Below are positions 9,654-47,091 of a DNA stretch of 64,000 bases, one piece after another. The notes below the pieces were generated by a model, which was not told where the DNA came from, made no database searches, and saw only the letters and a program-made list of their open reading frames with translations. This stretch comes from Strigops habroptila (Eukaryota > Chordata > Aves > Psittaciformes > Psittacidae): NCBI RefSeq assembly GCF_004027225.2, contig NC_046358.1:5918720-5982719 (forward strand), in the 5' to 3' direction. Every line of letters begins with the position of its first letter. Position 1 is the first letter of the stretch. The position numbers and the translations under genes were made by a program.

Positions 9654-18059
<8,406 letters not shown>

Positions 18060-19689: not shown

Positions 19690-20075
19690 TATGGAGGCAG
19701 GCTGAGAGAGCTGCGCTTGTTCAGCCTGGAGAAGAGAAGGCTCTGAGAGTCTTCAGCACAGCTTCCAGTGCCTGAAGGGGGCCAGCAAGAAACCTGGAGA
19801 GTGACAGGACAAGGGGGAAGGGCTTTAACCTGACAGAGGGGAGATTTAGATTAGACATTAGGAAGAAATTCTTCCCTGTGAGGGTGCGGAGGCGCTGGCA
19901 CAGGGTGCCCAGAGAAGCTGTGGCTGCCCCATCCCTGGCAGTGTTCAAGGCCAGGTTGGACACAGGGGCTTGGAGCAACCTGCTCTAGTGGAAGGTGTCC
20001 CTGCCCATGGCAGGGGGTTGGAACTGGATGAGCTTTAAGGACCCTTCCAACCCAAACCAGTCTGGGATTCTGTAA
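19690..20075 (+). mobile_element. CR1 LINE 3' fragment between F2 and ZNF408 remnant
   Basis: Plus-oriented CR1 3' end of about 385 bases. It contains TTCAGCCTGGAGAAGAGAAG, the AGGAAGAAATTCTTCCCTGT segment, CAGGGTGCCCAGAGAAGCTG and the terminal TTCCAACCCAAACCAGTCTG. The tail is degenerate. Confidence 0.94.
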
Positions 20076-20960: not shown

Positions 20961-22765
20961 ACATTCTGTGAAGACCTTCTAATTCATAATTGCTCCTCCT
21001 CTTTCTCTCCTTTTCTCTCCGACTAAAGCAGGTAGTCACAGGCCAGCGGATGAGGCTTTAGAGGCCTGGATTCTCCCTTTCTGTTCCCCCAATTGCCTTC
21101 CCTTCTCTCCTGGTTCCTGTGTGACCGAGGGCACACGTTTCAAACGCGCCCTCGAGCCCAGCTCCAGCGAGAATGCTTTGCAGCTGTGTCAATATTTGAA
21201 AACTCAGCTTCAAATACAAGCCCCCCCATAGGCCTGTGCTCCCACTGGTGTGTCCCAGCAGCCAGGGCACAGACTGAGCTTGTCTGCCCCCCCACTTTAA
21301 AGAAAAGAGCTGAAAATAAGGACACATGAAGGTTTATTAGCTGAATTCACCTTCCATCTTCATATCAAAGTGTCCTGGATCTGACTCCAGCTCCTTGTCT
21401 GCAAACCAGTTGTAAAAGTTTATAGAAAAAGTTGAATGTAGAAACTGCAAAGAGCAGCTTTTCAGATTGTTACCGTGTTCATAGCACCCCAAAAGGGAAC
21501 TGTACTGCTGATGATTCCCCAGTGGGCATTAAAAGTCCAAAGAATTTAAGCCCCTAAACAAAACTTTGTTTGGGAACTGCCGATGTTAGAAAAGTGCAAG
21601 ACAGAGAGCAAGAACAGCTAAAAATGAGGATGCAGCAGATGGAAGCAGTGTTTGTGTAACAGGGAGCGCAGAGTGGGCAAGTCTGAAAGACCTCCATCAG
21701 GTTTGGTATTGACTGTCTCTTCTATGAGGCCAAGTTCATGTGGCACTGGGAACTGTGTGCTTCCTTGCTGAAATGGGACCTAGTTGGCAAATGAGCACTG
21801 AAGAGGATGGAGCAGTGGGAATAATGTGGTGTAGTTGTGATGGTGCTGCCTTTTAGCTTTTTGGTGCAGGAGCAGGAAAGATGTGGAAGAGAGGAAGTAA
21901 GAATGGGAGAAAAAGAAGAAGGGGAACAGGTTAATGAACCCAACTTGAATGCAGAGGGGAAAGGCAAAATCTCCCGAGCATACCAAGATGAAGTGTTGAA
22001 CCCTTACCCGGGGAGGTGAGGAACCTCTCAGCTGGGGACAGTGAAAATTGCACTGTACAGCAAGACATGAAGCTATTCTTTCATGCCCTCAGACAGACCT
22101 TCCAGTCACTGTACAGCCTGAAGCTGACAGCAAGCAAACCAGGTGACAGTGGACAAGGAACACTCAGCACTATCTCCAAGGCAGGACTTTGCTTCTGCTT
22201 ATTGTGAGAAATGCTCTTCAAAAATGCACAACAGAGACACCTTGTTAACACTTAGGAAGCTGCTTCCCAGCAATGGTTGCAATCAGCATCCCCTTCAAAT
22301 GATCAGCAGTGCTGCTGAGCTCCAAGAGTAAGTGCTTGAAGAGCAACAATTAATTAAAGGAAAGATTTGAACAGAAGGCGTTGTTCAAGCTGCTGCTTTG
22401 AGACTCCTCCTGCCTTCCCCATGATGCAGTCACCCACTGGCAGCCTAACGGAGGCAGAGCACAAGCACTGCTCATTAACACTATGGGCATCTTCTCCAGG
22501 AAGTTATTCCCATCAACAGCCAGTGCTCTCCCTGCACCAGGCCCAGCATGTGGCATGTGTAGGCTCATAGCTCCAAGGAGCAGCTACCAAAAAGACCCAC
22601 GTCTACATAGCCAGTTACCTTGAAGACTGCTTAATTCTGCCTGGGGCTGAGCCACAGCCCTTGCTGCCACAGAGACAAGAGAGCTAGGGGTTTTGTTGGT
22701 TTTTCTTTTACCCCATTTTAATTAGCACAGAAGAAGATCAGGGCAGGTGGAGACAATAAGATCCT

Positions 22766-23405
22766 AATCTCAACCTCCACCACTTCTGCAAGTGCTCCGA
22801 AGCCCACCCCTTCCCGGATGATGCCCACAGGTCTTGTTTGGTGCAGTAAGCCTTGTCACACTGGGTGAACTGGAAGGGTCACACATATGGGCTTTGAAGC
22901 TCTCCTCTGAACTATAGTGCTTGCCACACTCTGTGCACAGGAAGGGCTTGTGGCCAGCATGGACAAAGTGATGCTTCTTGAGGTGGCAGAGCTGCAAGAA
23001 GGCTTTCCCACACTGCCCGCAGCGGCACCTGCGCTTGATCACCTCCTTCTGGGACAGGGCTTTTGGTGGGGGACCTAGGCTGTCAGAATGACCCTCACTT
23101 GAAGGTGACAACAGACCCAGGTCTCCTGAACATGGCTCTTTATGCCCCATCTCTGCTTCTTTTTCTGCTGCAGGTCTGTGATTCACACCCTTGTCAATTC
23201 TTCCTTGCACCTGCCATTGGCCTTAATGGTTGAGATGGTCTTGAGGTGCTTATTCTCAGCCCTCAGCACCTTGGCTTGCCACGGCTCATGTTTGGAAGCT
23301 GTGCTTTCCTCTTCTTGCAGCCTGTGGAAACGCTTGGTGGGCAGCCTCCTAACCTCAGTAGGACTGTGGTTTCATCACCTATTACCTTGGAGACATCGGG
23401 ATCCC
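22766..23405 (-). pseudogene. ZNF408: ZNF408 last-exon remnant, collapsed zinc-finger gene
   Basis: The minus-strand frame starting at 23210 encodes [18 protein letters not shown], one complete C2H2 finger (ligands at residues 64, 67, 80 and 84 of that frame). A second finger, [17 protein letters not shown], lacks its last histidine. This matches the first fingers of vertebrate ZNF408. The similarity then changes frame: 22869-22828 reads [13 protein letters not shown], like the next ZNF408 finger, and 22822-22766 in a third frame reads [11 protein letters not shown], like the extreme C terminus. The fingers between (human has about ten) are missing. Upstream, 23332-23183 holds another open frame that ends before the finger frame, and a possible acceptor lies at 23406-23407. 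Position and orientation match human ZNF408, head-to-head with ARHGAP1. Upstream exons, including the PR-like region, were not found. The likely reading is a dead or dying gene; a short spliced product with one finger is less likely. In mammals ZNF408 is a nuclear zinc-finger protein linked to retinal vascular disease. Confidence 0.75.
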
Positions 23406-23669
23406 CTGCACAAACACGGAAACATGGTGGGTGAGTTAACGCTGGCTGTTAAATGACACAATTGCTGCTGGATCAGAGGCACATTAACGTCTGAGACAGA
23501 TAACTCTGCTCTGCAGTAATCCTGGTGCTCTGGCATGAACCCCATTACTTTTATGACCTTTTTGTCTTTAAAACTGGAGAATAGGGGGGGAATCTCTGTT
23601 CTGTCAGGACAGACAGTGCCCGTGCTGCATTTCTAGTGTTTGACAGGCAGTGTATCTGGGAGGCATCAT

Positions 23670-23766
23670 CACAGAATCAACCGGGTTGGGAAAGACCTTT
23701 AAGATCATCAAGTCCAACCTTTACCCCAGCACTGCCAAGGCCACCACTAACCCATGTCACTGAGGA
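23670..23766 (-). mobile_element. CR1-type LINE 3' fragment near CpG island
   Basis: Reverse-oriented CR1 3' end of a divergent subfamily: TCACAGAATCAACCGGGTTG, then AAGATCATCAAGTCCAACC, then GCACTGCCAAGGCCACCACT. It sits between the ZNF408 remnant and the CpG island, where upstream exons of ZNF408 would be expected. Confidence 0.85.
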
Positions 23767-24141
23767 ATCGGTGATAAAGCAGGGCACCACGCTCCCTTCC
23801 CGGCCGGTGGCTCTCAGAAGCAGCACAAGCCCACAGACGCCGGCACCGCTGAAGGCGCGGGGCCGCTCCCTGCACCGGGGCTGGGACGCGCATCCCCGGC
23901 GCGGCTCGTACCTGCGAGGGGCTCCTCGCCGGGCGAGGCCGCGGCCCCTGCACCGCCTCCCGCCGCGCCTCCCCGCGCCGCTCCAGCAGCTCCGCGCCCG
24001 CCGCCGTGTGCCTCCCCGGCGGAACGGTGCGAGCGGGCGACGGGCGCGCCCGGACGCTGAGCGGCGGCGGGCGGGGCGGTGCAGCGCAGCGCGGCGCGGC
24101 GCTCCCCGCTTCCGGGGGCTGGCGGGCGGGCCGGGCGGCGG

Positions 24142-24162
24142 CAGCAGCAGCAGCAGCAGCAG
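24142..24162 (+). repeat. (CAG)7 at the end of ARHGAP1 noncoding exon 1
   Basis: Seven perfect CAG units run directly into the putative donor GTAATG at 24163. If exon 1 ends here, the repeat forms the 3' end of the 5' UTR exon. The exon end is inferred from the donor motif and from the next acceptor at 29567-29568. Confidence 0.65.
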
Positions 24163-24339
24163 GTAATGGCAGCGGTTGGTGCCCGGGGAGCGCACCCGGC
24201 CCTTCCCGCAGCAGGGGGGCCCGGCGTGGGCCGCAGCGGCCTCTCCTTGGTGTTGCCGGGGCGGGGAGGGGGCCCGGCGGCGGGGCTGGGTCTGGGCCCG
24301 GAGCCCCAGCGCCCGACCCCCTGCCCAGGTGATTGCTGC

Positions 24340-24368
24340 GGGTCCGGGTCCGGGTCCGGGTCCGGGTC
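24340..24368 (+). repeat. GGGTCC hexamer tandem repeat in CpG island
   Basis: Nearly five perfect GGGTCC units in the first part of ARHGAP1 intron 1. It is GC-rich and may vary in copy number. Confidence 0.85.
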
Positions 24369-25097: not shown

Positions 25098-25560
25098 TAA
25101 TCAGAGAATCACAGGCTGGTTTGCGTTGGAAGGGACCTTAAAGCTCATCCAGTCCCAACCCCCTGCCACGGGCAGGGACACCTTCCACTAGAGCAGGTTG
25201 CTCCAAGCCCCTGTGTCCAACCTGGCTTTGAACACTGCCAGGGATGGGGCAGCCACAGCTTCTCTGGGCACCCTGTGCCAGCGCCTCAGCATCCTCACAG
25301 GGAAGAACTTCTTCCTATCATACAATCTAAATCTCTCCTCTGTCAGGTTAAAACCATTCCCCTGTGTCCTGTCCCTACAGGCCCTTGTCCAAAGCCTCTC
25401 TCCAGGTTTCTTGTAGCCTCTTTAGGCACTGGGAGCTGCTCTAAGGTTTCCCCTGAGCCTTCCCTTCTCCAGGCTAAATACGCCCAACTCTTTCAGCCTG
25501 TTTTCTCATAGGAGAGGTGCTCCAGCCCTCTGATCATCATCGTGGCCTACTCTGGACTTG
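25098..25560 (-). mobile_element. CR1 LINE 3' fragment, ARHGAP1 intron 1
   Basis: Reverse-oriented CR1 3' end of about 460 bases, starting with the reversed tail TCAGAGAATCACAGGCTGG and continuing through CCTGCCACGGGCAGGGACAC to GAGAGGTGCTCCAGCCCTCT. It is opposite in orientation to ARHGAP1. Confidence 0.94.
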
Positions 25561-29613: not shown

Positions 29614-32600
29614 ATGGCTACGGACCCACTCTCGGAGCTTCAGGATGACCTGAACTTGGATGATACTAACCAGTCCCTCAGCCAGCTCAAACTGGCTTCC
29701 ATAGATGATAAGAGCTGGCCAGCAGATGAAGCTCCTGCTTTTCCTAAGTCGGGTAAGTATCCTGCTTGTTTGGGGTCTGGGTTTTGGCCAAAAAGGATTG
29801 TTTGTCCTGCAGGCATTGTGGTCATATCTACATCTACAGAGAGGCCCAGGTCCATTTGAAAGCTTTATAGACACATTAATCTTGTACCACACCCAAGTGA
29901 ATTAGCCCTGCCACTGAAACAGCACTAAAAAGCTCTGAGCAAGCTGGTGTAAATATACTTTCCTCCATCCTGTGGCTGACTGCACTTTGGTGCTGACAGT
30001 ACAGACATGCTCCAAGTCCTTGAGTGTCCTCTATTACGGTCTCTTACAGGATAGGTTGGCCTTCCTGAGTTGAAGGGTCTTGAACTTCCATGTAAGAGGT
30101 GGGGTTGGAGATTGAGTTGTTGCTCTGGAATCCTGTCCTATGGACTGCTGCCCAAAGAGGTCAGGGAAATTAGCTTAAGGGCTTATAGGATGAGACCATG
30201 CATCCAGGGATGATGTTAAGATCCTCCTGCTCTGAAAAGCCATGATGTTGCCTTTGGCACTTGGATTTTGGTCTTTGTGAATGTTTCTGACCTATCTGAA
30301 CAGTTGTTTTTGAGAGAGTGTACAGTCTGAGGGACACACTGGGCCCCCATAGGATTGACAGGTCTCTTCTGAAGCCATTGCTGCTCTTGTCCTCTCAGAA
30401 TTTCAAAGGAGGGTTTCCAAGGTGGACAGGTACATACATTAGTCCCTCCTGTGTTGAAGAACCATGTTTTCCCATCCCTGTACCCCTGGCCAAGGTGATG
30501 CAAATCCCGTCTTCTAATTGCTTGTTCCTTGTGTTTTGTGCAGAGGACTCCAAAGGCTCCCCTGAGCCCGTCACTCACCTCCAGTGGGATGATCCCTACT
30601 ATGATATCGCCAGGCACCACATTGTGGAAGTAGCAGGTAGTGGTCTTTCTGTTTTCTCCTTTGATGACTTTGCAGCTGGGCTGAGGAAGGGTCTTTCTAA
30701 TGGGGTTATGGGGGCACCTGCTATATGCCAGGCCCAAGTGACAATGACACTTGGCATCCTAAAGAGGAGGAGCACCAAACTTCTTGAATGCTTGCCACGT
30801 GTGTAATGTTCCACTGACCTTGGTTAATCTTGCGTTGCTTCTTGGCTCCTACTGTCTTGATTATATTATTAGCAGGACTTGGTTGCTTTTGCTGAATAGA
30901 TGTGGCCTTTGACTATATCCTGAGCACAAGATGTGGTTTTTGTGTGATAATGCCACGGAAATTATCTAGTTACGCAGTACACAGCTGACTGTCCTCAGCT
31001 GACTAAGGAATTCACAGTAGGTCTGTAAGCTCTCTTGTATCTGAGTGGCCAGAGCTTGCCATCCTGTCCAGAAACAGCATATACAGAAATCTGAAATAGG
31101 GGGAATGGGCACATGTCCCACTGCAAGGAAAGACCTCATCATTCAGTGTCAGAAGCATTGGGATTTTCTCTGTGTGGTTACCTTATCCTTATTATTGTAA
31201 TGACGCTAACTCATGGCAATTTACTGCTGAGACCTGCATAAGAAAGAGTTTTGGGGATATTCTTTATGTTGCTGTGGTAAGCCTGAGGGAGGGGTAATCC
31301 CAGATTGTCTTGTGTTCCATGTTTAAAAGACAAACTGTCTCTTCAACCTGTTGCGACTCGATTCACACTTCCTCCTCCTCGATTATCTATAGCCACTTCC
31401 TACCTCCCCTATTGCCATTCCTCTACTGTGCTCCCTGCCCCACATGTGAAACTGCAGTGAAGCAGAGCACAGGCTGGAGTCCTTTGGATTCAGGGTCGTT
31501 CTGCAGCAGGGTTTTACCGCAGAGGGAAGATTATCAGGCACGTACCTTGGTAAGAGTTGTCCTGACATCATTCTTTTCTGGGCTGTTTTCTAGAATGAGC
31601 TTGCTTTCTCCTAACCTTTCATGTTACATCATTTGGGGAGCAAAACAATAATGGTAAACTTTGTTGTCCTTTGTGCCTCTGGCTGCTCAGGTTCACAAGC
31701 CCAGGTATTTAGCATTTGGGCCACTAGGTCTTGTAGATTTGCCACAAGTGCTTTCATTTGCAAACATGTTACTGACCTTCTTTTCCATGGGGCTGGAGTT
31801 TCAGGACTGGGGTTTATAGAGGTCTGCAGCCCAGTGTCCCTACAGCTGGAAATGGAGTCCACACAAATGTGTGGACTCATCATTTCAGTGATGATAGCTA
31901 GACTATTTGGATGCAGATGGCAGAGGTAACTGGTGTTTCAGGACTGGGAGCTGATGAGTTAACTGGTTCTGTTGTTCACTTCAGACAAAGTTTCAGACAA
32001 AGTGCTTAGCAGAGAGTTTAGATCAGAGACATTGATAAGTCTGGAATGTCAGCCCAAACCAAGGATATACTTTGTGTGCTGCCTCCTGATGTAAGCGCCA
32101 GTCTCTCTGTGGGATTTCTGTTCCAAGGTAACACCATTTAGGTTTTTTTCCCAAGCTCTCTGAATGGAGTATCACTCCAGTGGAGGTGTGTCTCAGCGGC
32201 TGTTGGAATGTTTGACACGTTGTTTAGGATAGCGAATGAATTATCTAACTTCCTGAAAGGATCTGGAAGTGGTTTGATGGCTGACTGGGAGCTGTGCCTG
32301 CATTCTGAAAGAGATCTCTTCCCTGACAGTGGTTTAAAGTGGTATTTCTAGTGAGGTGTCTATCCCTGTTGTATCTCTGCATAGTGCAGAAGCAGCTCAG
32401 AGATGTTTCTGTTGTTGGTTGCCCCTGGCCAGTTTTCACCAGTAGCTGGTTTATCTGAAAGCATGTGATGGTCCCACACACATAGCATGGTGTGATGCCT
32501 TTCTTGGCATTGGAATAGTAGCATAGCTCCAAAAAGTGGATTTACTGCCACATAGTTTTGAGACTTGCTGGTGTCTCCTCTCCTGGAAGCAGGATTTATT

Positions 32601-35600
32601 AAGTCGATCTGCGGGGCCTGAGTTGTAACCTGGCCTCTGGGATGAAGTTGTTTGTTCAGGTTTTTTGGTCAAAAATTAGTAACGTTAACTGTTTGGAGAA
32701 TGGGTGATATTCTCTGGGATGTTGTTGGAGCCAGTCTGAGAAAATCTGGGAAAATGCTATTAAGAAATAGCCTGGAGAATCAGAATTGCACTGGAGGGTT
32801 AATATGAAACTGTTTGCATCTGGCTCTCCTGACAAGTTGTGCTTGTCAGCACCTTCATGTGCAATGAACACTCCTCATGCTGAGCCTGAAACAAGTAGCT
32901 CCAACCCGGTTCTTGTAAATATTAGGAAATGGCAGCAGAACAAGGGTTGTTTTACCCATTCTTCTGCTTTATGAGCTTTCTCTTCTGTGTCCTTCCCTGT
33001 TGTGCACTTGAGAGCAGAAAGCATATGGCTAACTCTGTTCCTGCCTTCCCTGAAATACGTTCTGAGATGCTGATGCTATTTTGAGACAAAACCAGAAGGC
33101 TGGTTCCCATCCTCGGGCTGAACTCCATGATCCCAGGGTTATCCTGTGTGGTCAGAAGAGTAATTGCTTCTCGCAGGAAGGAGGGGCGTGTGGTGTTAAT
33201 TTAAACTTACTAAAAGCCCAGTTTTGACGACAAAAACTTAACACACTCATTTTCTAGCTGACCTTAATTCCTGATGGAGTTCAAGGCACGCTGGATTTGA
33301 ATATCCTGGATATCTGGCCTAAAGAGGGGGAAAATAACATTGCAAATATTTTGCTAGAAATTTGCCAGCAAAATAAGGGGTTTGCTCTTGTTTTTCATTT
33401 AAAAATAGTACAGCAGCTTCAAAGAGACTCTCCTTTTATGCCCTGTGCTCCGGTCTCTTCTGGAGACTGGGACCTTCCTGGAAGAGGCTGTCCGTGGGAA
33501 GGAGCAGGAATGTCATTGCTATCCCGTGCGGTGCTGTGTCACAGGAAGATGGCAACAAAAGGCATCCAGGCCACAGTTTTGAGGGAGTACAACAGAATAT
33601 TTCAGTTTTGGGAAACTTTCCTTTAGTTCTGTGGTTCAGTGCTTTTCTGAAGGGAAGAGAGGATACCATGCTGTTCCTTTCAGACCTGCCTCATGGTGTG
33701 AATTTCTGCAGTGTTTTACACAGGCTCTGGAGAGGTTTCTGTGTGGTTGTGCTCTTCTTGACTCTTGAGTTCCATTTTTGTGAGCATTGTAGCAGGGAAG
33801 TTTGTCTTCACACATGGCTAGAAGTTGGAGCAGAGGCGGCTCAGTTTCACTGCACAAACCACTTCTGCAAAGTGTGGTTTTTCCTCCTTGCTCACATCAC
33901 ACAGCATTCAGAGGAAACACAGGCTTCTGGTTAAAGACTATTGAGGAACTATCCCAAATTTCTGTTATGTCTGAGAGTTTCTATATCCTTCTGCTAATTC
34001 TATGGCAAAGGTGCTGCTTGCATCTCCTTGAGGGTTGAGGCAGACTAGTGTGACATAATCTTGTCCTTGAATGTCAGCAGAGGATGAATTGCAAATAGTT
34101 AATAACAGTCTGAAGGAGGTCTCTGGAGATGGTAGTTCCTACTGGGAACCTGGGGCTGTGGGAAGAGCAGGGCTCTTGACAGCTCTAGCAATGTGTTGTT
34201 CCTTGTTCTTCTGCACAGTCTGAAATACTGGTCTCACCTTTGTGATCCATATGCAAACCTACAGCAATGAGGTGCATCAGCATTCCCATTTTTACACAAT
34301 AACTGGTTTTCTTCCTTTTGGGATAGGAAAACTGGGGCTTAGCATAAAACCGGTGAATGAATTTTCCATTCTGTAGAGGCTAGAAGTTGGTGTAGGAGTA
34401 GTCACCAGAGTGGCTGTTACTATTTGCTTCAGCTCTGTAGTCCCTGCCCAGTGACTTCAGAGCTTTGCTGAAGCTCAGAGCATGTTTCTGCTGGTTTATG
34501 TGGGAAAACTGCTGCCTCACACCATTAACTGGCAGTGTGCGAGGCTGCCCTCACAGAGCAGGCATGATGCTAGTGTGTGTAAGACTTGTGATTGAAGAGG
34601 GAAAGCAGGGTGGAGAGCGGGGGGTGTATCTTCTTGTGTGTTACTAAAAGCTGTAGTTTCAACAGTGAGTATTTCAGTGGTGAATCTGGTACGAAACCGA
34701 CCCGGAAAGCATTGTGGCTGGCTGTTGGCTGCAGGTGCCAAAGCTGTAACTAGTGCTGATGGTTTGTTGTTGCTGTCTATGATTGACATGAGGAGGTAAA
34801 ATCAATCTTTCTTTCACTTAGAAGACAAAACTTGTGCTAAAATTATGTTGCCGTGTGTCTTTGGTGGCTAATGGGCTCAGCAAAGGCCTCTGATTAACAA
34901 AGGTTCTTTTCCCTTCCAGTATGGTGCATTATTATTGGCCCTATTAATACAGGGTGCATCCATTTCTGTTGCTTTTGGGTGTAGTTTCTGGCTTTGACTT
35001 TTTTTAAGAGTATTTGTATGATACAGAATGATGAGTTGTATCTGCAGAATTGGGCCCAGCCAAAGCCCAGCTTTCAAAACCATGTTTTGACATGCGAGAC
35101 CAAGGGAATGGAGAGTGTTGGAGGGATTCTAAGTTCCTAAGAGAGACCAAGGGAATGGAGAGTTTCTTTCTAGAGCCCTGCTCTAGAACTCTCCATCCTG
35201 TCTTGACAGGCCCATGTGGGTCTGTTGAGTACGCAGCTGTAAGAGTGATGGAGAGGGGCTGGGCACAGCAATAACCACTTGTAACCACTCTCCGGCCATT
35301 CTAATTGGCAGTTTATATTCAATTCAGAATCTACCAAACATTTTCTTTTAAGCTGTGAGTGTAATGAAGATCTAAATTGTTCCCATCTTCAGCTTATTAG
35401 TGAAGCTAATTTAGTTCAGCTTATTTAGCTTCTTGCAAACCAATCTGTTGGATGTGTTATTCAAACAGTATGATGCCATTCTCTATACACTTTTGAAGTT
35501 GTTCAAAGGACCTTGACATTCAGATTTAATTGTGTTAACCCTTTTAAAAGAGGCACTATGGTGATGACCATTTTGGTGGTAGGGGAAGAGTACCAGTAAG

Positions 35601-38600
35601 GGCCAGAAGTTTGACTGTGGTTATACAGAACTAGTTGCAAATTCAAGACAGAGATTTGGGAATCGTGGGTTGCTGTTACCACCTCTAATTGTTAGATAGG
35701 ATTGCTTTGGAGAGGAGCATGGGTGACAGATGAAATAGAAGGAGCTTGACTGCTGCAAGACAGCAACTCAATGCATCCCAGTGGCAACCCAGCTAGACTC
35801 TGAGACTTTCTAATCAAGATTACTTTCTGGGGAAGGGTACAAAGCTTGGCTTGCTATAACCTTGTTTCTGTTCCTCCAGACCAGGGTGCACTTGATGGGG
35901 CCCAACCAGGTAGGTAGACTTTTTGTGGCGCTAACATTTGGTACTGTAGATCATGGTATTCCTTTAGCATGACCGTGGCCTGTAGCTGGACTGTCTCAGG
36001 GGAGCCCAAACTTTGCTCAGCTTTAGGCTGCACTGGCAACTCTTCAGGAGTCCAAAACCTGCACCAAATTGTTATCTGAGGGCTGCACCTCTGCCTCCGG
36101 CACAGCAGAACCATCTGAGCCAAACTGGGCATGTGGGCTTCACTTTTGGCACTTTGGGGCAATTGGGTCTCAGTGTAAATCCTGCTCCTCCTCTGTCATG
36201 GTGGTGGCCTGCTTGGACCAGTTCAGTTTGAACTGGGATTTACCTTGTTCTCGTATGTGCTTTGGTAGTTCATCCTAGGACTGTTTCCTATTCCTTCATA
36301 TGATCTGCTGCTGTGCTCACATGCCAAGCAGCTGGTGCTTAAACTGGATTCTCCAGCTGAAAGCAACTGTTATCTGTTTCTTCTCCCTTTGGCTGCAGAG
36401 ATGTATTTTGGTAACTTATTCCTCAGTCTAGCCTGAAGCTGTGCTAGACTGCTCTGTGCTTGCTGAGCATTTGTTAATACTCTCTGGACTCCAGTCCCAG
36501 TCTGGCTGCCAGCGCTTTCACACTTCTCAATGTAGGTGAAAACTTCTGGTGTGAAATTCTTGCTTCTGTTTCTGAACAGCAGGCCAAGACCTTCACACAG
36601 TCCATGGAAATGCTGATCTTCACTGCCTCATTACTTGGGCATCTGCCACGCTCTCAGGCATCCTCCCATTTTGCATTCTTTAATCTGACCCTTCAGTAAT
36701 ATCTTGTATCAGTTAGAGCTGCAGTCACTTGTTAAGGCTTTATGATTTGGATATTGGGAATATCTAGGTAGATGCCATGTATTAAAATACTTCTACTTTG
36801 AGCTCCTTACCTTCTTTTCCTGAGGGGCTAAACCCACGCTGGAATTGCAACAGGCAACTCTACTATATTCACACACTGCCCAGCGGTGTCATAAGCTTGG
36901 CAAGAGTCTGAAATTACATTAGAGAAATTTTTTACTAACAGTGGCTCTGATAAACATCCAGATCTCTGTGAAACTGGTGTAGTAATGTTCCAGAATTATG
37001 CAGTGGTGTTCTCTCCTTGGCACTGCACTCCGTTAACTTTGCTGTTTCACCAGTAACACTAGTTTTTGGTGGTAAGTTTTATCCATCTGCATTCTCTCAG
37101 TATCAGAGTACCAGGATATTTCAAAGTACCCATTTGGATCTTTCATCGAGGTGGGCCCTCAGCTGGGGGTACCTGATGAAGGTAGAAATGAGCAGGGTCC
37201 CTGGACTACAGTTATGTGAGTAGTATGACAGCTTCCAATCACGGCATAAAGGCTAACGGGTATATTTCAGGAGAAATACCTAGACATACAAAGCGGGATT
37301 TGCAAGTCACGCATGTCTTTTCTGTGTTGACACAGATTCATTTAACAGAGTCCCGTCTCAGGACAGTACTTGGTAGGAATTTCTGCACTGATATGTTTGT
37401 ATTGCTGCAGGTTTCAATCTGAAACATTAGCCTCAGTATTTAAACTTGAGCCCTTTCGAAAGCGTGGTCTTGCACCGATGGCTTGCAACAATGATGTTCC
37501 ATGCCCCTTGTCTCAGAAGTGCTGCTCTTCAGGTGAGAAGAAAAACTGAGTTTGGGCCTTAAAAGCACCATAACAATGTTTAGGAGAATTAGCATGCCCA
37601 TCAGTGCTGCGAGTTAATATCTCTTTAGATGGGCATCTGTCTTGACTGGAGAGGCTTTGCATATTGGCTACCATCTTGCTCTTTGCTGTTAAAAAAGAGA
37701 TATCTGAATTACTATGGGGAGGTAGTTTTATTTCCAGTGTCATGTATGACCTTACTCACAAAGGTTTGCACATTGTTGGGGTGCTCTGTGAGTGCTGATG
37801 GTAATTGCTTCTCTGTTGGTTTGTTGTTAACTACTGAGCATTCCTCATCTGGGAGAGGTAGGAGGCAGGCTGAGAAGCTGAGTGATTACTTCATGGTCTA
37901 TAGTTGTGTTTAATGGAAACTTTAGCTATTTGCAATTACAAACAAGGGGTGAAAACCTAGATACATAAGATTAATATTGCAAACAGGAAAGCAAACAGTG
38001 CAAGGGATGGAGCATCTGGGAAAGATCAAACACGATAAGAATCTGGTTGGTTGGAGGCAGACAGGCCACCTTCAGGCAGTTTTCTCCAGCAGCCAGGAAC
38101 GCATGGAATGGGCTTTAGGTTCTTGCTTATGAATTGGAACAACTGATGGTTCAGCTTGAATGCTGAACGTTGCACTTTGTCGTGTCTGGAGGATGCAGAC
38201 TGATCTGATCTGTGTCAGGTGGAAACAAGATTGGCAGTTGGTTGTTTTTACAGTGTCTGTGCTGACAGGCTGAGCTCAGTGTGATGAAACCGGAGTGAAA
38301 CGCAGAACCCAGTGATGGGCATGCTGGTTCCTGTGTAGGTGTTGCGCATAAATTCATTCTGTTTTGGAAGGCAAAATGGGCCACTCCTTTCTCAGTCATC
38401 CAGGGGGCTATAGATTAGCTTTTGGAGTACTTGGCCCTGGAAATACTTGGCCAGGGGAAACACGCCGTCTCCCTTTTGGCAGAATCATGGATTGTCCATT
38501 TTCTCTTTATCAGCAATCCCAGACCTTTTCTCCAAGGCTATATAAGGAACAAAATTCCAGACTTTGCATAGGCCCAGCCGTAGGCTTTCATATCATTCCA

Positions 38601-41600
38601 GAGGAAGGTCTTTAAGGTATGTGGTTCCTGATTTGTGACTTGTCAGGAATGGAAATCACTGCCCAGGAGCCCGAGCTGAGTGTGTGGCCACCCACAACAC
38701 TGCTTGAACACGCAGTTCTTCACGGCCAAGGCCTGCCTTGATCAAGCTTGCAGCCTACTTCTGGCTCTCAGACCATCCACTCTGGTGTAATGCAGCCTCT
38801 CAGTTAACTGAAGATAGCACCTATTCTGACTTTAGCACAGAGCTATGATCTGCAAAGATCTGTAGTCTTTCTGACTATTCTCTTTCATCACTATAAAACT
38901 CAACAGATTCTCAGATGCTGCTATCTTCTTGCTGCTCTGTGCAGGCAAGACCCTTTATCTTCCAGATGGAGACATACGAGTGGCTCAAGATCACTGGGAA
39001 GAGTTACAAGATGCCATATTCCTTGCCCAGGACTTTGTAACATGCACTTTTGTTTTATAGACAGCTTATGTGCATTAGACCCAGCCCTAAAACTCATAGC
39101 AAGCTACTAAGAAACTCTGGGCTAGGCAGAGAGTGGGCTACTGTGGGATATGCAATGTGATGTTGGTCTTGTGGCCTGGCTGTGACTGTATCTGGGTGTT
39201 CCCAGATGAGCCTTGCATCACTCTCTCCTAGTCCTGCATTCTGGGTCATGCATCCTCCCTAATTGCCCCTTACCTCCGCATGTGTATGTCAATGTCATGG
39301 CCTATGCCAACCCTTTCCTGGTCTGTAGCTAGTGCTGCTTCAGTGTCCCAAGCTTTTGTAGAGGTTCTGGCTTGTGTGCATCAGTAACTTCTGTCTCTTG
39401 TGTTGTCTGGTAAGTGACTTGGAAATAGGACTTCCGAGGGAAAATTATACGTGAACAAGCAACAAGAGAATCTGTTCTTGTAGCCAGCACGGGGCTAAAA
39501 GAGGGTTAGTGGCATCTTAATGTCATGGCTGGTATATGTAAGTTCTGTGGCTGCCATTCGCAGCACAAGGTGGTCATCTGTTACCAACAGGCAGTGTTCC
39601 CAGGAACCTCAGGTTTGCTGTCCAGGGTTCAGTCTGAGATCTCAGTTGCTGCACAGTAAGTGTAACCAAGCAGTAGTTGAGGGTCAGAGCCCCTGCAAAG
39701 GTGAGAAAATCACTGCATGCTCTGAACAGTGTAAATCAGTGTAGGGACAAGGATACAATGCAAGGCTGTCATGCATAAGTAGTGATCATTGCTGCTTTTC
39801 TGTGCTGTGGTCTGTATGAGATGGTTATGCCATAGGGGAGCAAGGTGAGTAGCAAGAAAGATGGGAAGACTTTAACCCTTCACACTAAAGGAACCATTTC
39901 ATCTCCACTGGTGCTAAAAAGCAAGTCATCCTCATGGAGATGGATCGGGTGTTATGTCTGAGAGAGAACCAGACTTTCCTTCGAACTCCAAATGTCCAAA
40001 AGATTTGTGACCTGGTTCTCCCTTAGCTAAATCTCTTGGTTCCTCTAGCATTGTCTGCTGAGCTTGTCCATGCCCATCTGCTTGGATTTTGTTCATGGGG
40101 CTGAGATCTCTGCTGGCTTAAGTCCACTGATGTATGAAGTATTGCTTGGGGAAAACTCGGCTTGTTTCTGAAGCCTCAAGTGGTGTTTGGGTTTTCCCTG
40201 AGATGAGGGTGCTGTATGGGTTGTTTGGCTCCAGTGAGATGGGGATTGTTTTCTGCTGGGTTTGTACTTAAAATGCTTTGTTGTGCTGCATTTTGCAGCT
40301 CCTTCCAGCTCAGGTTGGAAAAATATCTTTGTGGATGGAAAATCTAGGAAACAGTGAACAGCTTGTTCTGCAATCCCCCTGGAGAATCCAGCAGCCCTAC
40401 TTGGTCCATGTGTAGAAGAGGCTTATGATGATGCTTGCTTCTCATTTCTGGGATGTGGCTGGCTGGGACTGCCCTGTTCCTAAGAATTTCTTGGTTTCCA
40501 GGATATGAAATGGCTTTGTCCTTTGTGCAGGACTAAGCTTCAGGTGAAGCAAGAAACAAATGCACCAGGCCATGGGCAGTTAGTCTAGGACTGTGTGCAG
40601 GATGGAAGGAGCTGTTGTTACACCTGTGAGGGCAGTTTTCTCTGTGCCTCCCTGGGCACATACATCAGGAGCAATGCCCAGGGGCAGTGTTACAGGATTT
40701 ATGCTCTGAGCACTCTGTACTTGAGGCCTCCATCCCTACGTGCCCCAGAGCATCCTGGATTCCAATCCTTCCTTTTCTTTCAGGGCTGGAGCATGGACTC
40801 TGTTCTCTCTTCACATTGTTGACTTGCCAGGCCCTTGGTTCAGGTTTCTGCTTCCATACTAGGCCCATGGTAACTGCTGAAAACGAGGTTTAGCTTTGCT
40901 GGCAACTGTGGCAATCCAGACTTCTGCCTTGTTATGGTGGTTTCCCATTTTCTGTTTGTCCCTTGCCTCCAGGGCCACAATGTAGTCCTTAAACTCCCTG
41001 TAATCCCTGGCATTTCATCTGCAGGTGATGACAAATATGGAAGGAAAGTCATTTTGTTCAGTGCCTGCCGGATGCCCCCAAGTCATCAACTTGATCACGT
41101 GAAACTGCTGGGGTGAGTAGTGTCTTAGGAGGCTGCTGTTAACTTCTGAAGCCTGATGTAATTCCCAGGTGCTGGATTTCTGAGGCCAAATCTATCTGCA
41201 CTAGCTCTGTTAGCTGGATGTGTCCTCCCAAAGTACTTGCCTGCATTGCTGGGGATGCAACTCCTCTGTTTAGACACACAAAAATGAGTCCCCAAGAGAG
41301 GAAGAGCCTCTCTGTGGCAGAGCTTGAAGTGAGTTCAGCAGTTGTCTCTTCTCAGGTACCTGAAATTCACACTGGACCAGTATGTGGAGAGTGATTACAC
41401 ACTGGTGTACCTGCACCATGGCCTGACCAGTGAGAACAAGCCATCCCTGAGCTGGCTGCGGGATGCCTACAGGGAATTTGATCGGAAGTGAGTAAGGCTG
41501 CAGCAAGCAAGGCTGTAACATGCTGTTCTCTAGCCTAATGTAGATTCTTCCACGTAGCTTGGGGATCATAATTTACTATCACTTGTTTCTGCTGTTTATA

Positions 41601-44600
41601 GAGGTGGCTTGTTGTTTAATGCAGGCTGAATCATGGGATAAACGGCTCCTTCTGTAGTTACATCCTTTAGGACAACAGGCAAGCAGCAAAGCCAGGACCC
41701 ACTGCAAGTGTGTCACCCCATGGTATAGTTGTTGCTTCCTGATGAGGCTGCTCACTGCTTCTGGGTGAATCTTGGAATTAGAGTGTGCCCTTAGGCTGCT
41801 GAGTGGCCTGACACAGCTACAAAGCATGGGAGAGCAGAGGCTGTGGGTGCTGGGGAGTTGTGAGGCTCAGTGCAAAAGGAATGGAGCACCAGGGTGCCTT
41901 CATCTGGAAAGATTGGATCCTCTCCCGAAAGCACAGCTCATCCTTACGTAGCTTCTTTTGGCAGGTACAAGAAGAACATCAAAGCCTTGTATATTGTGCA
42001 CCCAACAATGTTCATCAAGACCCTGCTGATTCTCTTCAAGCCTCTGATCAGGTAGGAAGCACTATAGGAGGCTCACTCACATCCTTACACTGCAGGGGAA
42101 TAATGGGGCATTCTCAGTGGGGCACAAGGTAAACCCAGGCTGCCAAGCCTACCCTGGGGACTCTCACCCTATACTATCTCCTCCTGTTTCTGAGCTCAGA
42201 AATACTCAAACCCAAGAAGTACTGCTTTGAGAACCCGCAGAGTCTGCAGCTCTGTGCTGCTGCTCCCTTTCTGTCCAGCCAAGTGGAAGGAAAGTGTTGC
42301 AGGTCCTGCTAATAATGAAAAAGGAAGTGAAAGCATCAGTCCAAATTGTATTTAATTCATTGTGAAATCCTAACTTTGTAAAAATAATTGAAAGCAAAAC
42401 TTTCTTCAGCCTATTGCTGGAAGGAGAAATCCAGTGTTTTAGGGAGCCTGCTGCTGCTGGAGCTTCTGATGTGACTTGGAAAGTCTTGGCATCAAATACA
42501 TGGAGTTGGAGAGCTCTGGGGGTGTTATCTCTGCTGCTCTGTACCTGCCCCTTTGCCCCACTGATGTCTCTTGTGGAGCCCTGCTCTCCTTGTCTGTAGG
42601 CAGTCAGTTCTGATACTGGTTTTCCCCATTCCTCACATAATCTACTTTTCTCTTGTTTTTCAGCTTTAAGTTTGGACGAAAGATTTTTTATGTGAACTTC
42701 CTTAGCGAGCTGGAGGAGTACGTGAAGCTGGAACAGTTGGGGATCCCAAGCCAAGTGCTGAAGTGAGAATGCTGCCTGTCTCCCTTTGCTTAGGACTCCG
42801 TGAGAGGGGACTTTTCTGGAGGAATGGCAAGGGGAGGAAGAGATTGTTCCACTCAGGCAGTGGTTTTGGAGGGAGTGGAGACAAATTGCCTTAAGGACTA
42901 TCGCTTCCTTCCATGCTCCTCCCTGTGTGTCCTTGGCCACGGTGCCCAGTTCTGTCCCAGTGGAGCACCAATCTTGCCTTTCCCACTCACCCCTCTGGGG
43001 CTTTCTGCAGGCTGCTGACCTGGAGCTCATGGTTCATCTGTTGTGTTTGGGCACCTGCTCTGCTCCCTCTGCATGGTTCACCTTGGTTTTGGGGCTTCCC
43101 AACATTGCCACAATCCCAGTCCTATCAGATTGATTTCCCGTCCCTCACACACACATGCAACTGTCTCATCACAAGCAGTGCTGCCCTGGCCTCCTGCCCA
43201 GGCTGTCATCCACAGCTACTCCAGCTCCTGATTCCAGATAGATATTCCTTTCTCCCTGCTTTTTTCTGGCAACCAGACATTTGATCTTGTTGCCCCTGTG
43301 CTCCAGAGCTGCCTGTACTTTGTTTGCATAGGTGGAATCAACCACGCTAGGCTGGAGATGTTACCAGGGGGTGTGCAGCACTGGGTTCATGCTCTTTCTG
43401 GGAGGTGGGGTGGCTTCTTACTAGTCCGTGTTTTGCCACAGATATGATGAATATCTGAGATCCCTGCAGAAACCTTCACAAGTGCCCCTGAAGCCAACCC
43501 CTCCGCGTCCACCGCTGCCAAACCAGCAGTTTGGAGTCTCGCTCCAGCTGTGAGTATCCCTGGATTGTGTTGCTTTTGCCCTGTCTTGCTTGATACGAGC
43601 TCACTGTATTTGTAACTGAACAGCAGCAAAAGTGGCTGTAACCTTTCGGGCAGTTCAGATTTCCTGCGGAGCCTTCATCATTCTTCTGAGGAACTCTGCG
43701 CTCGTGACCAGATCCTGACTCGGTTCAGTTCCACCCTCTTGATTCCCCAGCTAGATTGTATCTAAATTAGGATGGGATTGCTTCTGCAGCTACGCATCAC
43801 TAAGGGATGAACAAAATAAGGGCCATGTGGGACAGCTTTATGCCACTACAAACTTCCTTTAAGCAAAGGAAGTCTGTCCGAGGCTGAGGGTGATGTCTTT
43901 AGGGCTGTTTTGATTGAGCAGTGCTGCAGATCTTAGGTTTTTCCATATCATAAATTCTATTTTAAAAGCACTTCTATTCACCCTTGTACTGATCCCACCC
44001 CCCATTCCTGCAGGGTGACACAGGCAAGCACAGACACTGGCAAGGGCTAGTGATACTGGCTAAGTGGTGAAGGTATTTTTAACTTGGAGTGTGATTTTGC
44101 TTCCTCGGGGAATGAGGAGGAGCCAGTACCCTGTGGCCAGACAGATCCTCTGAAGCAATCTGGCAACACGTGCCCCAGCTGCAGCACGTTTCCAAATGGT
44201 GTTTCCTGTGGTGCTGTGTGCCTGAGTTTGAGTAGCCTGAGAGGGTTGAACAGCTCCAAGCCATTAAGTGGTACAGACAGCTGAATGTGAGGGTGGCAGC
44301 ACACACTTTGGCATCACTAGGTCTTCCCAGACAGCCACTGGGTTGATGCATCTTCTGCTACAGGAGTGGGGTGGGTAAACTTATCCCATACATATTTCTC
44401 TCATGTGTCAGCTTCTTTGTGCCCTTGCTCCTATGGGGAAGTAAACAGGAAGCTTAACCCTTTTCATCTGATTCTGCCTCATTGCCTTCTTGGAAACCCT
44501 TTGCCCTGGCATCTACAGGCTGTGGGTTTTACAGAAGAGAGAGGATTATTCCTCTGGTGTAGTAATGAGCTCGTACTTGCTCCAGTGAATGATGCAGCAT

Positions 44601-47091
44601 GATGGGTGAATGGGGGAGAAGGCTGGAATAATGGCTGAGCCAGGGACTAGGATAGCAAGATCCTATGTGGCAGGGCTTGTGTGGGCAACTTCCAGACTCA
44701 GGGCTGCATGCAGGGTAGGGAGGACCAGTCATTTGTAACCTTTTGTCTCTTTCACAGTCTCAGGGAGAAGAGCCCTGATCAGTCTCCTGTTCCCCTGGTG
44801 GTCAGAGACACCATTGGTCACTTGCAGGACCATGGTAAGTGTTCAGGGGGAACTGCAGCCCCTCTTAAGTTCACATCAGTGGCCTCTCCTCCACCCAAGT
44901 TCCCATCCAGAGTGTGGTGAGATCAAGAACAACAGTCTACAATGAGGTGTAAAGGCATGAACTAGGTGAGTTAGCCTTCAAGAGAGATTGTGCAGGGCTT
45001 AGGAGATTTCTTTCTTCCAGTCGTCCATACTCCCATTTGTATAAGAGTAGCAAAATGCTCCTTGTGTCCTTTGCCTGGTAGTGGAAGCAGAAAGAATTGC
45101 TATAAAGGGACTTGCTGACATCTGTCTGAATGCCCACAGCACGGATTTATGACTGTTAAGACCAGCATTTTTAGAGGCTCTCACGTGGCTGATCTTTCTT
45201 CTCCATCTGGTCTCACTTCACAGCTCTTACTACAGAGGGGATTTTCCGGAGATCAGCAAATACACAGGTTGTCAGGGAGGTCCAGCAAAAATACAACATG
45301 GGTAAGTGCCCAAACTCAGCAGAGCTCCACTCATTCCCAGCTGGAGCTGTGTTGGAACTAATCCATCATGGCTCCTCTCCTCCTTTGATAGGCCTCTAGG
45401 TGAGGTATGACCTAAGTTGCAAAGGAGAAGCATCTGATACTTCTGCTGTGTAGAAAGCATATTCCTTCCCACTCACATTCCCCTTGCTGCCTTTTTCATT
45501 CCTGAGTTTCCCTGTTTCTTGGGGTGGGATATACCACCTTAGTCAGGTTATACTGTATGCACTGAAGATGACCAGGAAGAAACTTGTTCATCTGTTACAT
45601 CGAATGACTTCTAAAGACGTAGTGCTAGATTCAGCAGCGCTTTGCATATGCTTTTGGGATGCATTTTTCCACTCTTCTAGAAGATGTGGTGCTTCAGTAC
45701 CCTCTCTGTGTTCTTCTTTAAACTCCTGCTTCCCTAGTTCTGAGCTCTGATCACCGTGTCCCTTTCTGTGTCTGGAGGAGGTCCTGCTTTGGCCACTGAG
45801 CACTGAGGCTCTGCTCTACTTTCTCAGGTGTGCCTGTAGATTTCCAGCAGTATGAAGATGTCCACCTCCCTGCTGTGATTCTCAAGACCTTCTTGAGGGA
45901 GCTGCCTGAACCCCTCCTCACTTTTGGGCTCTACAGCCACGTTGTCAGCTTCCAGAGTGAGTTGTAACAACAATGTCCTACTCCCTGAAGGTTACACTGG
46001 CCAAAGGCAAAGATATCTTGGGAGGGGGGCATGCATGGGATACCCTGTGACTGCAAACTTGGCTTTCATCAGGGTGGGTGCTGAGGATTCTTCATGGACC
46101 TGCTTGTCTTTTCCCTCTTTTTAGATGTGGAGGAGGAGAATCGTGTGGATGTTGTTCGCAAAACACTCCAGACTCTGCCAGAAGAGAACTACCAAGTGCT
46201 CCGTTTACTGACAGCCTTCCTGGTGCAGGTGAGCTGCTCCAAAGGTGGGCAGGCTTGTGCTAGTTCAGTTGCCAGTGCCTTGCAGCAGCTTTCTAACTGC
46301 CTGCTCCCTCTTTTCCTTTGAGAGGAAATGAGTCTCAAGCTAGAAAATTGCCTTTCTTTACCTTACTGTTAAACAGAGATCAAGAGTGATCATGATGAAT
46401 TAGCCTAAGCAGTTGCTTCTCATAATGGCGGGAGGTGCAGGTGGGCATTAAGCCTGTGTGGTCTATGCCAGGGAGGCTGAGAGCTCCGCAGGGTGAAGGT
46501 ACAACTACAAGATATCTGAGTAGAAGATTAGACTAGAAGAGGGGTCTCAGATCTGCCCTACAGCACTTTGTGTGCTGCCAGGGAAGCCACTGCAAGGCTG
46601 TTCTAGCAAGAGGGAAGGTAATTCTGTTTTGAGTGGTGACCTGGACTGTAGAGATACTGGCTGACAGTGCTTTTGGTTCTGTTGTTATGATATGGCCTGG
46701 TGGTTAAGCCATGGTGGCAAATGGCAAGATTCTGCTCCTCACCTCCTGAATGCTGGGTGTCACGTGTGTTTCTGTCTTCTGGCATTGGGCCTTCGCTTTC
46801 TTTCCTCCCATTTTCCCTTGGGAGTCTGTCAGCTCTGGCTTTGGGGAGTGTAGAGGGCACCTACTCTGTTGTTCTGTAGGATTCATAATGGTCTCTTTCC
46901 TTCCCGCATAGGTCTCTGCTCACAGTGACAGAAACAAGATGACAAACACCAACCTGGCAGTTGTGTTTGGCCCAAATCTGCTGTGGGCCAAAGATGTAGC
47001 CATCACCCTCAAAGCCATCAACCCCATCAATACCTTTACCAAGTTCCTGCTGGACCACCAGAAGGAGCTCTTCGAGGATGTGGAGGCCTGA
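29614..47091 (+). CDS. ARHGAP1: ARHGAP1 (p50RhoGAP/Cdc42GAP), complete coding region
   Basis: Twelve coding exons: 29614-29752, 30544-30636, 41025-41112, 41356-41487, 41965-42051, 42664-42762, 43442-43549, 44758-44834, 45224-45301, 45828-45956, 46125-46228 and 46912-47091. They give 437 codons plus stop in continuous phase; human has 439. The ATG at 29614 has a good context (GGGGACCATGG) and opens [17 protein letters not shown], close to the human start; 5' UTR of exon 2 is 29569-29613. Domains: Sec14/BCH lipid-binding domain about 75-215; proline-rich SH3-binding motif [14 protein letters not shown] about 231-244; RhoGAP domain about 250-432, with arginine finger Arg283 in GIFRRSANT and the conserved [17 protein letters not shown] segment. 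The protein speeds GTP hydrolysis by Cdc42 and RhoA in cytosol and on endosomes and so restrains actin-based protrusion. No defect was seen. The CpG-island promoter fits broad expression. Confidence 0.98.
30637..41024 (+). other. Long ARHGAP1 intron (10.4 kb), no element recognised
   Basis: This is the largest intron in the window, between the coding exons ending at 30636 and starting at 41025. I saw no CR1 copy, conserved exon or RNA gene. It contains many short random open frames and a small local duplication at 35096-35163. The downstream introns of the gene are all about 2.2 kb or less. Confidence 0.6.
35096..35163 (+). repeat. Local duplication of a 21-base unit
   Basis: GAGACCAAGGGAATGGAGAG followed by T occurs at 35096-35116 and again at 35143-35163, 47 bases apart. 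The intervening bases are unrelated. Confidence 0.85.

Follow-up and report, generated by a model that had tools for sequence, protein, structure and literature searches.

ZNF408, also known as PRDM17, is a member of the PRDM family, and the human protein combines a PR-SET domain with ten C2H2 zinc fingers (PMC10647367). Changes in the gene have been linked in people to exudative vitreoretinopathy (FEVR) and retinitis pigmentosa, and zebrafish ZNF408 mutants have abnormal eye vessels (PMC10605292, PMC10647367); the accessible part of a further paper mentions ZNF408 for zebrafish only (PMC5405983). One substitution from a FEVR patient, p.Glu715Asp, falls in the AEVVEVE motif of the human protein (PMC4912735). 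In birds, the PRDM17 alignment of Fumasoni et al. 2007 lacks a complete PR domain for chicken as well as for fugu, the chicken sequence coming from the early and possibly gapped assembly galGal3; the accessible text of that study puts the number of putative PRDM orthologues in birds at 16 and states no loss of PRDM17 (PMC2082429). Goose ZNF408 is an annotated gene with exonic non-synonymous variants, known from the annotation alone, and its scaffold also carries ARHGAP1, ATG13, CKAP5 and HARBI1 (PMC10464066). Loss of ZNF408 in birds was not stated in the titles and abstract openings of the literature that we found, a coverage that lies outside subscription papers. In other unitary pseudogenes of eye genes, too, a single-copy gene decays at its ancestral place.

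Here we analysed a stretch of 64,000 nt, referred to below as the window, from the kakapo, a bird with 26 chromosomes (PMC8081667); the stretch occupies C4:5,918,720-5,982,719 in the bird's own assembly (1,148,577,936 bases in 89 contigs). All comparisons with human ZNF408, including the spacings given below, are based on a reconstructed protein sequence, 720 residues long and with ten C2H2 fingers, in agreement with the accessible part of PMC4912735. In a check that was not blind, the window translation and the published numbers being known beforehand, 14 of 14 residues of the reconstructed sequence stood at their expected positions. Twelve of these have numbers published in the texts accessible to us (Pro44, Leu67, Val194, Val197, Glu230, Met232, Arg337, Ala372, His455, Thr617, Pro647 and Glu715), and the other two are Ser126 and Arg541.

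Three-frame translation of the minus strand revealed pieces of ZNF408 between 23,021 and 22,766 that are colinear with the human protein and spread over three successive frames. Finger 1 (22959..23021, minus strand) is complete, with four of four zinc ligands present, and is followed in the same frame by finger 2 (22884..22937, minus strand), which ends past its first zinc-binding His, the second His and the linker being deleted. Between the first Cys of finger 1 and the Met past the first His of finger 2, both included, 42 of the 46 residues are identical to human in the tblastn alignment, and this single-frame stretch (23021-22884) was recovered with an E value of 7e-26 in the whole window and of 2e-30 in a 1.7-kb local search. 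A second frame holds an N-terminal scrap of finger 3 (22828..22878, minus strand; 11 of 17 residues identical to human, E 0.001 in the local tblastn search), in which Phe stands in place of the first zinc-binding Cys. The third frame holds the extreme C terminus (22766..22798, minus strand), the counterpart of human GAWAEVVEVEM, with the conserved AEVVEVE retained. Human ZNF408 (NP_079017.1) shares with the remnant not only fingers 1-2 but also the start of finger 3 and the last residues AEVVEVE, as well as its neighbours ARHGAP1 and F2.

As the C-terminal scrap appeared in tblastn only as the tail of an extended alignment of low quality (E 0.12 in the whole window, 0.002 locally), its evidence is a shuffle test, in which the 184 nt behind finger 2 were dinucleotide-shuffled 2000 times. 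The finger-3 scrap scored 59 and the C terminus 53, with shuffled means of about 20, and 0 of 2000 shuffles reached either score, which rules out chance similarity as the source of the two scraps. Human residues 425-690, which comprise fingers 4-10, scored 38 on the same 184 nt, a score matched by 26 of 2000 shuffles, and we attribute it to the finger-3 scrap matching other fingers.

The preliminary description of this DNA had proposed that ZNF408 is reduced to a one-finger remnant at its conserved locus, with a full finger and a partial second finger in one frame and the fingers in between absent. Our translation and alignment to human bear this out, and confirm the scraps in their order. The scraps of finger 3 and of the C terminus that had been placed in the two other frames are indeed there, but they start at 22878 and 22798, respectively, and not at 22869 and 22822.

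The frame is broken twice, at 22883 and at 22827. At the first lesion (22879..22883, minus strand) the five nucleotides TGTGA replace the seven codons (21 nt) that lie in human between KAHM and PFPC, a net change of -16 nt, and at the second (22799..22827, minus strand) 29 nt replace the 849 nt that lie in human between DL424 and GAWAE708, a net change of -820 nt; each produces a frameshift, with the human spacing taken from the reconstructed sequence. The second lesion takes away what is left of finger 3, all of fingers 4-10 and the greater part of the C-terminal region. Repeats of at least 12 nt in 22600-24200 all lie within the CpG island, none of them at the breakpoints. Whereas human ZNF408 has ten fingers and a PR-SET domain (PMC10647367), the bird locus retains a single complete finger, shows no recognisable PR domain and has a reading frame split in three. 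It thus lacks the ten in-frame C2H2 fingers of a functional ZNF408, and carries disabling lesions at the ancestral place of the gene, as a unitary pseudogene does.

What is left open is a stop-to-stop reading frame of 150 codons (22770..23222, minus strand), which joins fingers 1-2 to a novel tail that is out of frame; C2H2 pairs from the PDB can be aligned with it. In Pfam it reached 20.4 bits for zf-C2H2, short of the gathering score (25.2), and the best-matching stretch was finger 2; no separate match was listed for finger 1, despite its full C2H2 spacing. The 64,000 nt contain no N bases, which rules out a gap artefact of that kind.

In human, ZNF408 lies beside ARHGAP1 and F2. In the window, the coding exons of ARHGAP1 (29623..47073, plus strand) were traced by 12 tblastn pieces with 45-100% identity to a reconstructed human sequence, and F2 (prothrombin) is represented by a kringle-containing stretch (13857..14231, minus strand), for which plasminogen and hepatocyte growth factor came out on top by summed kringles while prothrombin gave the longest match (residues 8-109). 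A Gla-domain-like open reading frame was recognised by eye at 16431-16688, and a search of the window for the N terminus of CKAP5 gave no match at E 0.05. The remnant is located between F2 and ARHGAP1 and head-to-head with the latter, which is the position of the orthologue in human; ARHGAP1 also accompanies the gene on the goose scaffold (PMC10464066).

We then searched the whole assembly for ZNF408. With the 640-bp DNA of the remnant as a query, only the self-match was returned. The 150-residue reading frame gave 124 matches from the best 150 of 522 candidates: itself at 100% identity, and 123 that were 28-55% identical and are generic C2H2 background. With human fingers 1-3 the remnant ranked first (98.5 bits, 85% identity over 53 residues), ahead of a runner-up at 70.7 bits and 44% and of short stretches elsewhere with at most 58% identity, among the best 150 of 619 candidates. 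The remnant was thus far ahead in what serves as a positive control, showing that a genuine orthologue can be told from the background even at the distance between human and bird. The human sequence from finger 3 to the C terminus instead returned three different arrays at 156.1, 154.8 and 154.4 bits (40-41% identity), and no array closer to fingers 4-10 than generic C2H2 arrays was seen among the best 126 of 600 candidates. A search with the PF00096 family (best 150 of 1626 candidates) has no bearing on the remnant. Together, its position and its rank as the assembly's best match to human fingers 1-3 support the remnant as the ZNF408 orthologue, in keeping with the earlier view that the locus proves its identity.

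Upstream of the fingers we recognised no ZNF408 exon, the same result as in the preliminary description: four pieces compared with human gave scores reached by 289, 162, 68 and 357 of 500 shuffles, a comparison that has perhaps no power, since outside the fingers the human protein has possibly diverged too far. The PR-SET domain gave no Pfam match in three upstream open reading frames and no human similarity above shuffles, again with little power if human is too divergent. A likely pre-finger coding remnant of the last exon may be preserved in another frame (23201..23365, minus strand; SPTEVRRLPTKRFHRLQEEE...), marked by a weak signal in codon composition: its score is near that of the stretch of fingers 1-2. 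Of 704 non-coding windows, all open and in part overlapping, 31 scored as high, compared with 23 of 704 for the stretch of fingers 1-2. Codon composition, as the sole basis, hints at a possible further frameshift near 23186-23222.

On the side of the CpG island, a minus-strand stretch (23912..24160) ends in a splice-donor-like site at 23912 (CGCAG/GTACGAG), one of nine donor-like sites in the scan, and is a candidate for the old exon 1 of ZNF408. Its score against human was reached by 357 of 500 shuffles, and its minus strand has no ATG. An ACG stands at a possible former start-codon position, in line with a possible loss of that codon. The splice scan picked no acceptor near 23405. At the other end, ATTAAA (22717..22722, minus strand), 43 nt beyond the C-terminal scrap, may be the old poly(A) signal, although hexamers of this type number 33 in the window with 28.6 expected and the candidate is not significant alone; a promoter and terminator scan of the 3' end, built for bacteria, found nothing.

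We conclude, with a probability of about 0.86, that the ZNF408 locus of this bird is a unitary pseudogene, and that the normal ZNF408 protein has very probably been lost. The loss that had been proposed beforehand is supported by two frame-breaking net deletions, by the mutated zinc ligand of finger 3, and by the absence of fingers 4-10 from the locus together with the failure to find them elsewhere in the assembly. In such a history ZNF408 would have been intact in an ancestor, its function would have turned dispensable, the gene would then have been inactivated, and its wreck would now be decaying at the original place, where the CpG island common to ARHGAP1 and the remnant may still drive transcription of the latter. 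As to the age of the loss, we simulated neutral decay of fingers 1-2 from the present sequence, and a stretch with no stop and at most four amino-acid changes resulted in 3% of cases at 0.1, in 18% at 0.07 and in 41% at 0.05 substitutions per site. The good state of fingers 1-2 therefore suggests that decay began not long ago, since under neutrality a divergence above about 0.1 substitutions per site is improbable. Under this model, either the loss probably goes back less than about 0.1 substitutions per site or the short frame is still selected, and the best reading is a unitary pseudogene that is moderately old at most. Given the annotated goose gene, the loss is not common to all annotated birds, in so far as the accessible part of that report describes it (PMC10464066).

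Selection on the short frame would mean that the frameshifts had turned ZNF408 into a truncated living gene, transcribed and selected, that encodes one and a half fingers followed by a novel tail. Such a gene accounts for a 150-codon frame without a stop, for a first finger with all of its ligands and for the close agreement with human in this stretch, and the CpG-island donor-like site and the ATTAAA hexamer are still there. The scraps behind the frameshift are also less well kept: 9 of 30 residues differ from human there, compared with 4 of 46 in fingers 1-2 (Fisher p 0.027), or 6 of 17 in finger 3 alone (p 0.018), both contrasts being post hoc and the former confounded, as constraint was not equal ahead of the loss. 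For this reason we keep a retained mini-protein only as a rival. Recent loss predicts good preservation equally well; finger 2 without its second His leaves only one complete finger, the Pfam gathering score is reached by neither finger, and the codon composition hints at another frame upstream of about 23200, so that the present reading frame would begin inside the old exon. We therefore regard a truncated living gene as unlikely. We would give equally little weight to its product, a minimal form of ZNF408. This would be a short protein of the nucleus that retains one intact finger and is selected for a function without the sequence-specific DNA binding of a long array, the sequence behind the frameshift being decaying 3' untranslated sequence.

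Two further accounts would leave the gene unharmed, and both are considerably less probable than a living short frame. If the true allele were intact, the deletions would be a product of collapse or base errors, and the lesions are indeed known from the assembly sequence only. An error of this sort is very improbable, given a window without N or gap, an assembly whose 89 contigs for 1.149 Gb suggest chromosome scale, and lesions as unlike as 16 nt, 820 nt and a Cys-to-Phe change in one exon; to judge from the reconstructed sequence, the human fingers are also not the near-identical repeats that are prone to collapse. Alternatively, the remnant could be a broken duplicate, with the intact ZNF408 in another part of the genome; the assembly is perhaps not complete, and in the protein searches only the top candidates were scored. 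The remnant, however, occupies the ancestral place between F2 and ARHGAP1, and searches of the whole assembly with DNA, bird protein and human protein found no intact ZNF408 within the scored candidates, which was also the outcome of the check proposed in the preliminary description; we accordingly rejected a second intact copy, and hold it to be the least probable account of all.

A unitary pseudogene is a known kind of event, and the loss of the canonical ZNF408 from this genome is well supported. Gene loss being common, the interest lies in ZNF408 itself, a gene of medical importance, rather than in a new mechanism. A bird that lives without the ZNF408 protein would be a natural knock-out, which could separate a vascular from a photoreceptor role of the protein. 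Bird retinas are not known to have inner retinal vessels. The pattern of loss across birds would show whether it is linked to the avascular retina, to life in dim light or to neither. A reduced visual pathway is documented for the kakapo in the accessible part of PMC3157909, and we make no causal claim that ties it to the loss of ZNF408.

Several minor features accompany the locus. Fragments resembling CR1 LINEs, identified by eye from the CR1 consensus, occur at 23655-23785, 25101-25560 and 19720-19990; one of them separates the donor-like site of the CpG island from the remnant of the ZNF408 exon, and the two others have a common translated end. Within the CpG island, on the ARHGAP1 side, CGGGTC is repeated in five perfect copies at 24339-24368. 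On a larger scale, the alpha-globin genes are found at 75.28 Mb of C4, the contig that also carries F2-ARHGAP1. Among single-length PDB chains, the alpha-A globin of the assembly matches 2zfb, a parakeet haemoglobin, best (276.0 bits, next 271.7), behind six haemoglobin chains of double length, a weak sign of a parrot. In chicken the alpha-globin genes and F2-ARHGAP1 are located on chromosomes 14 and 5, respectively, and C4 therefore looks like a fusion chromosome.
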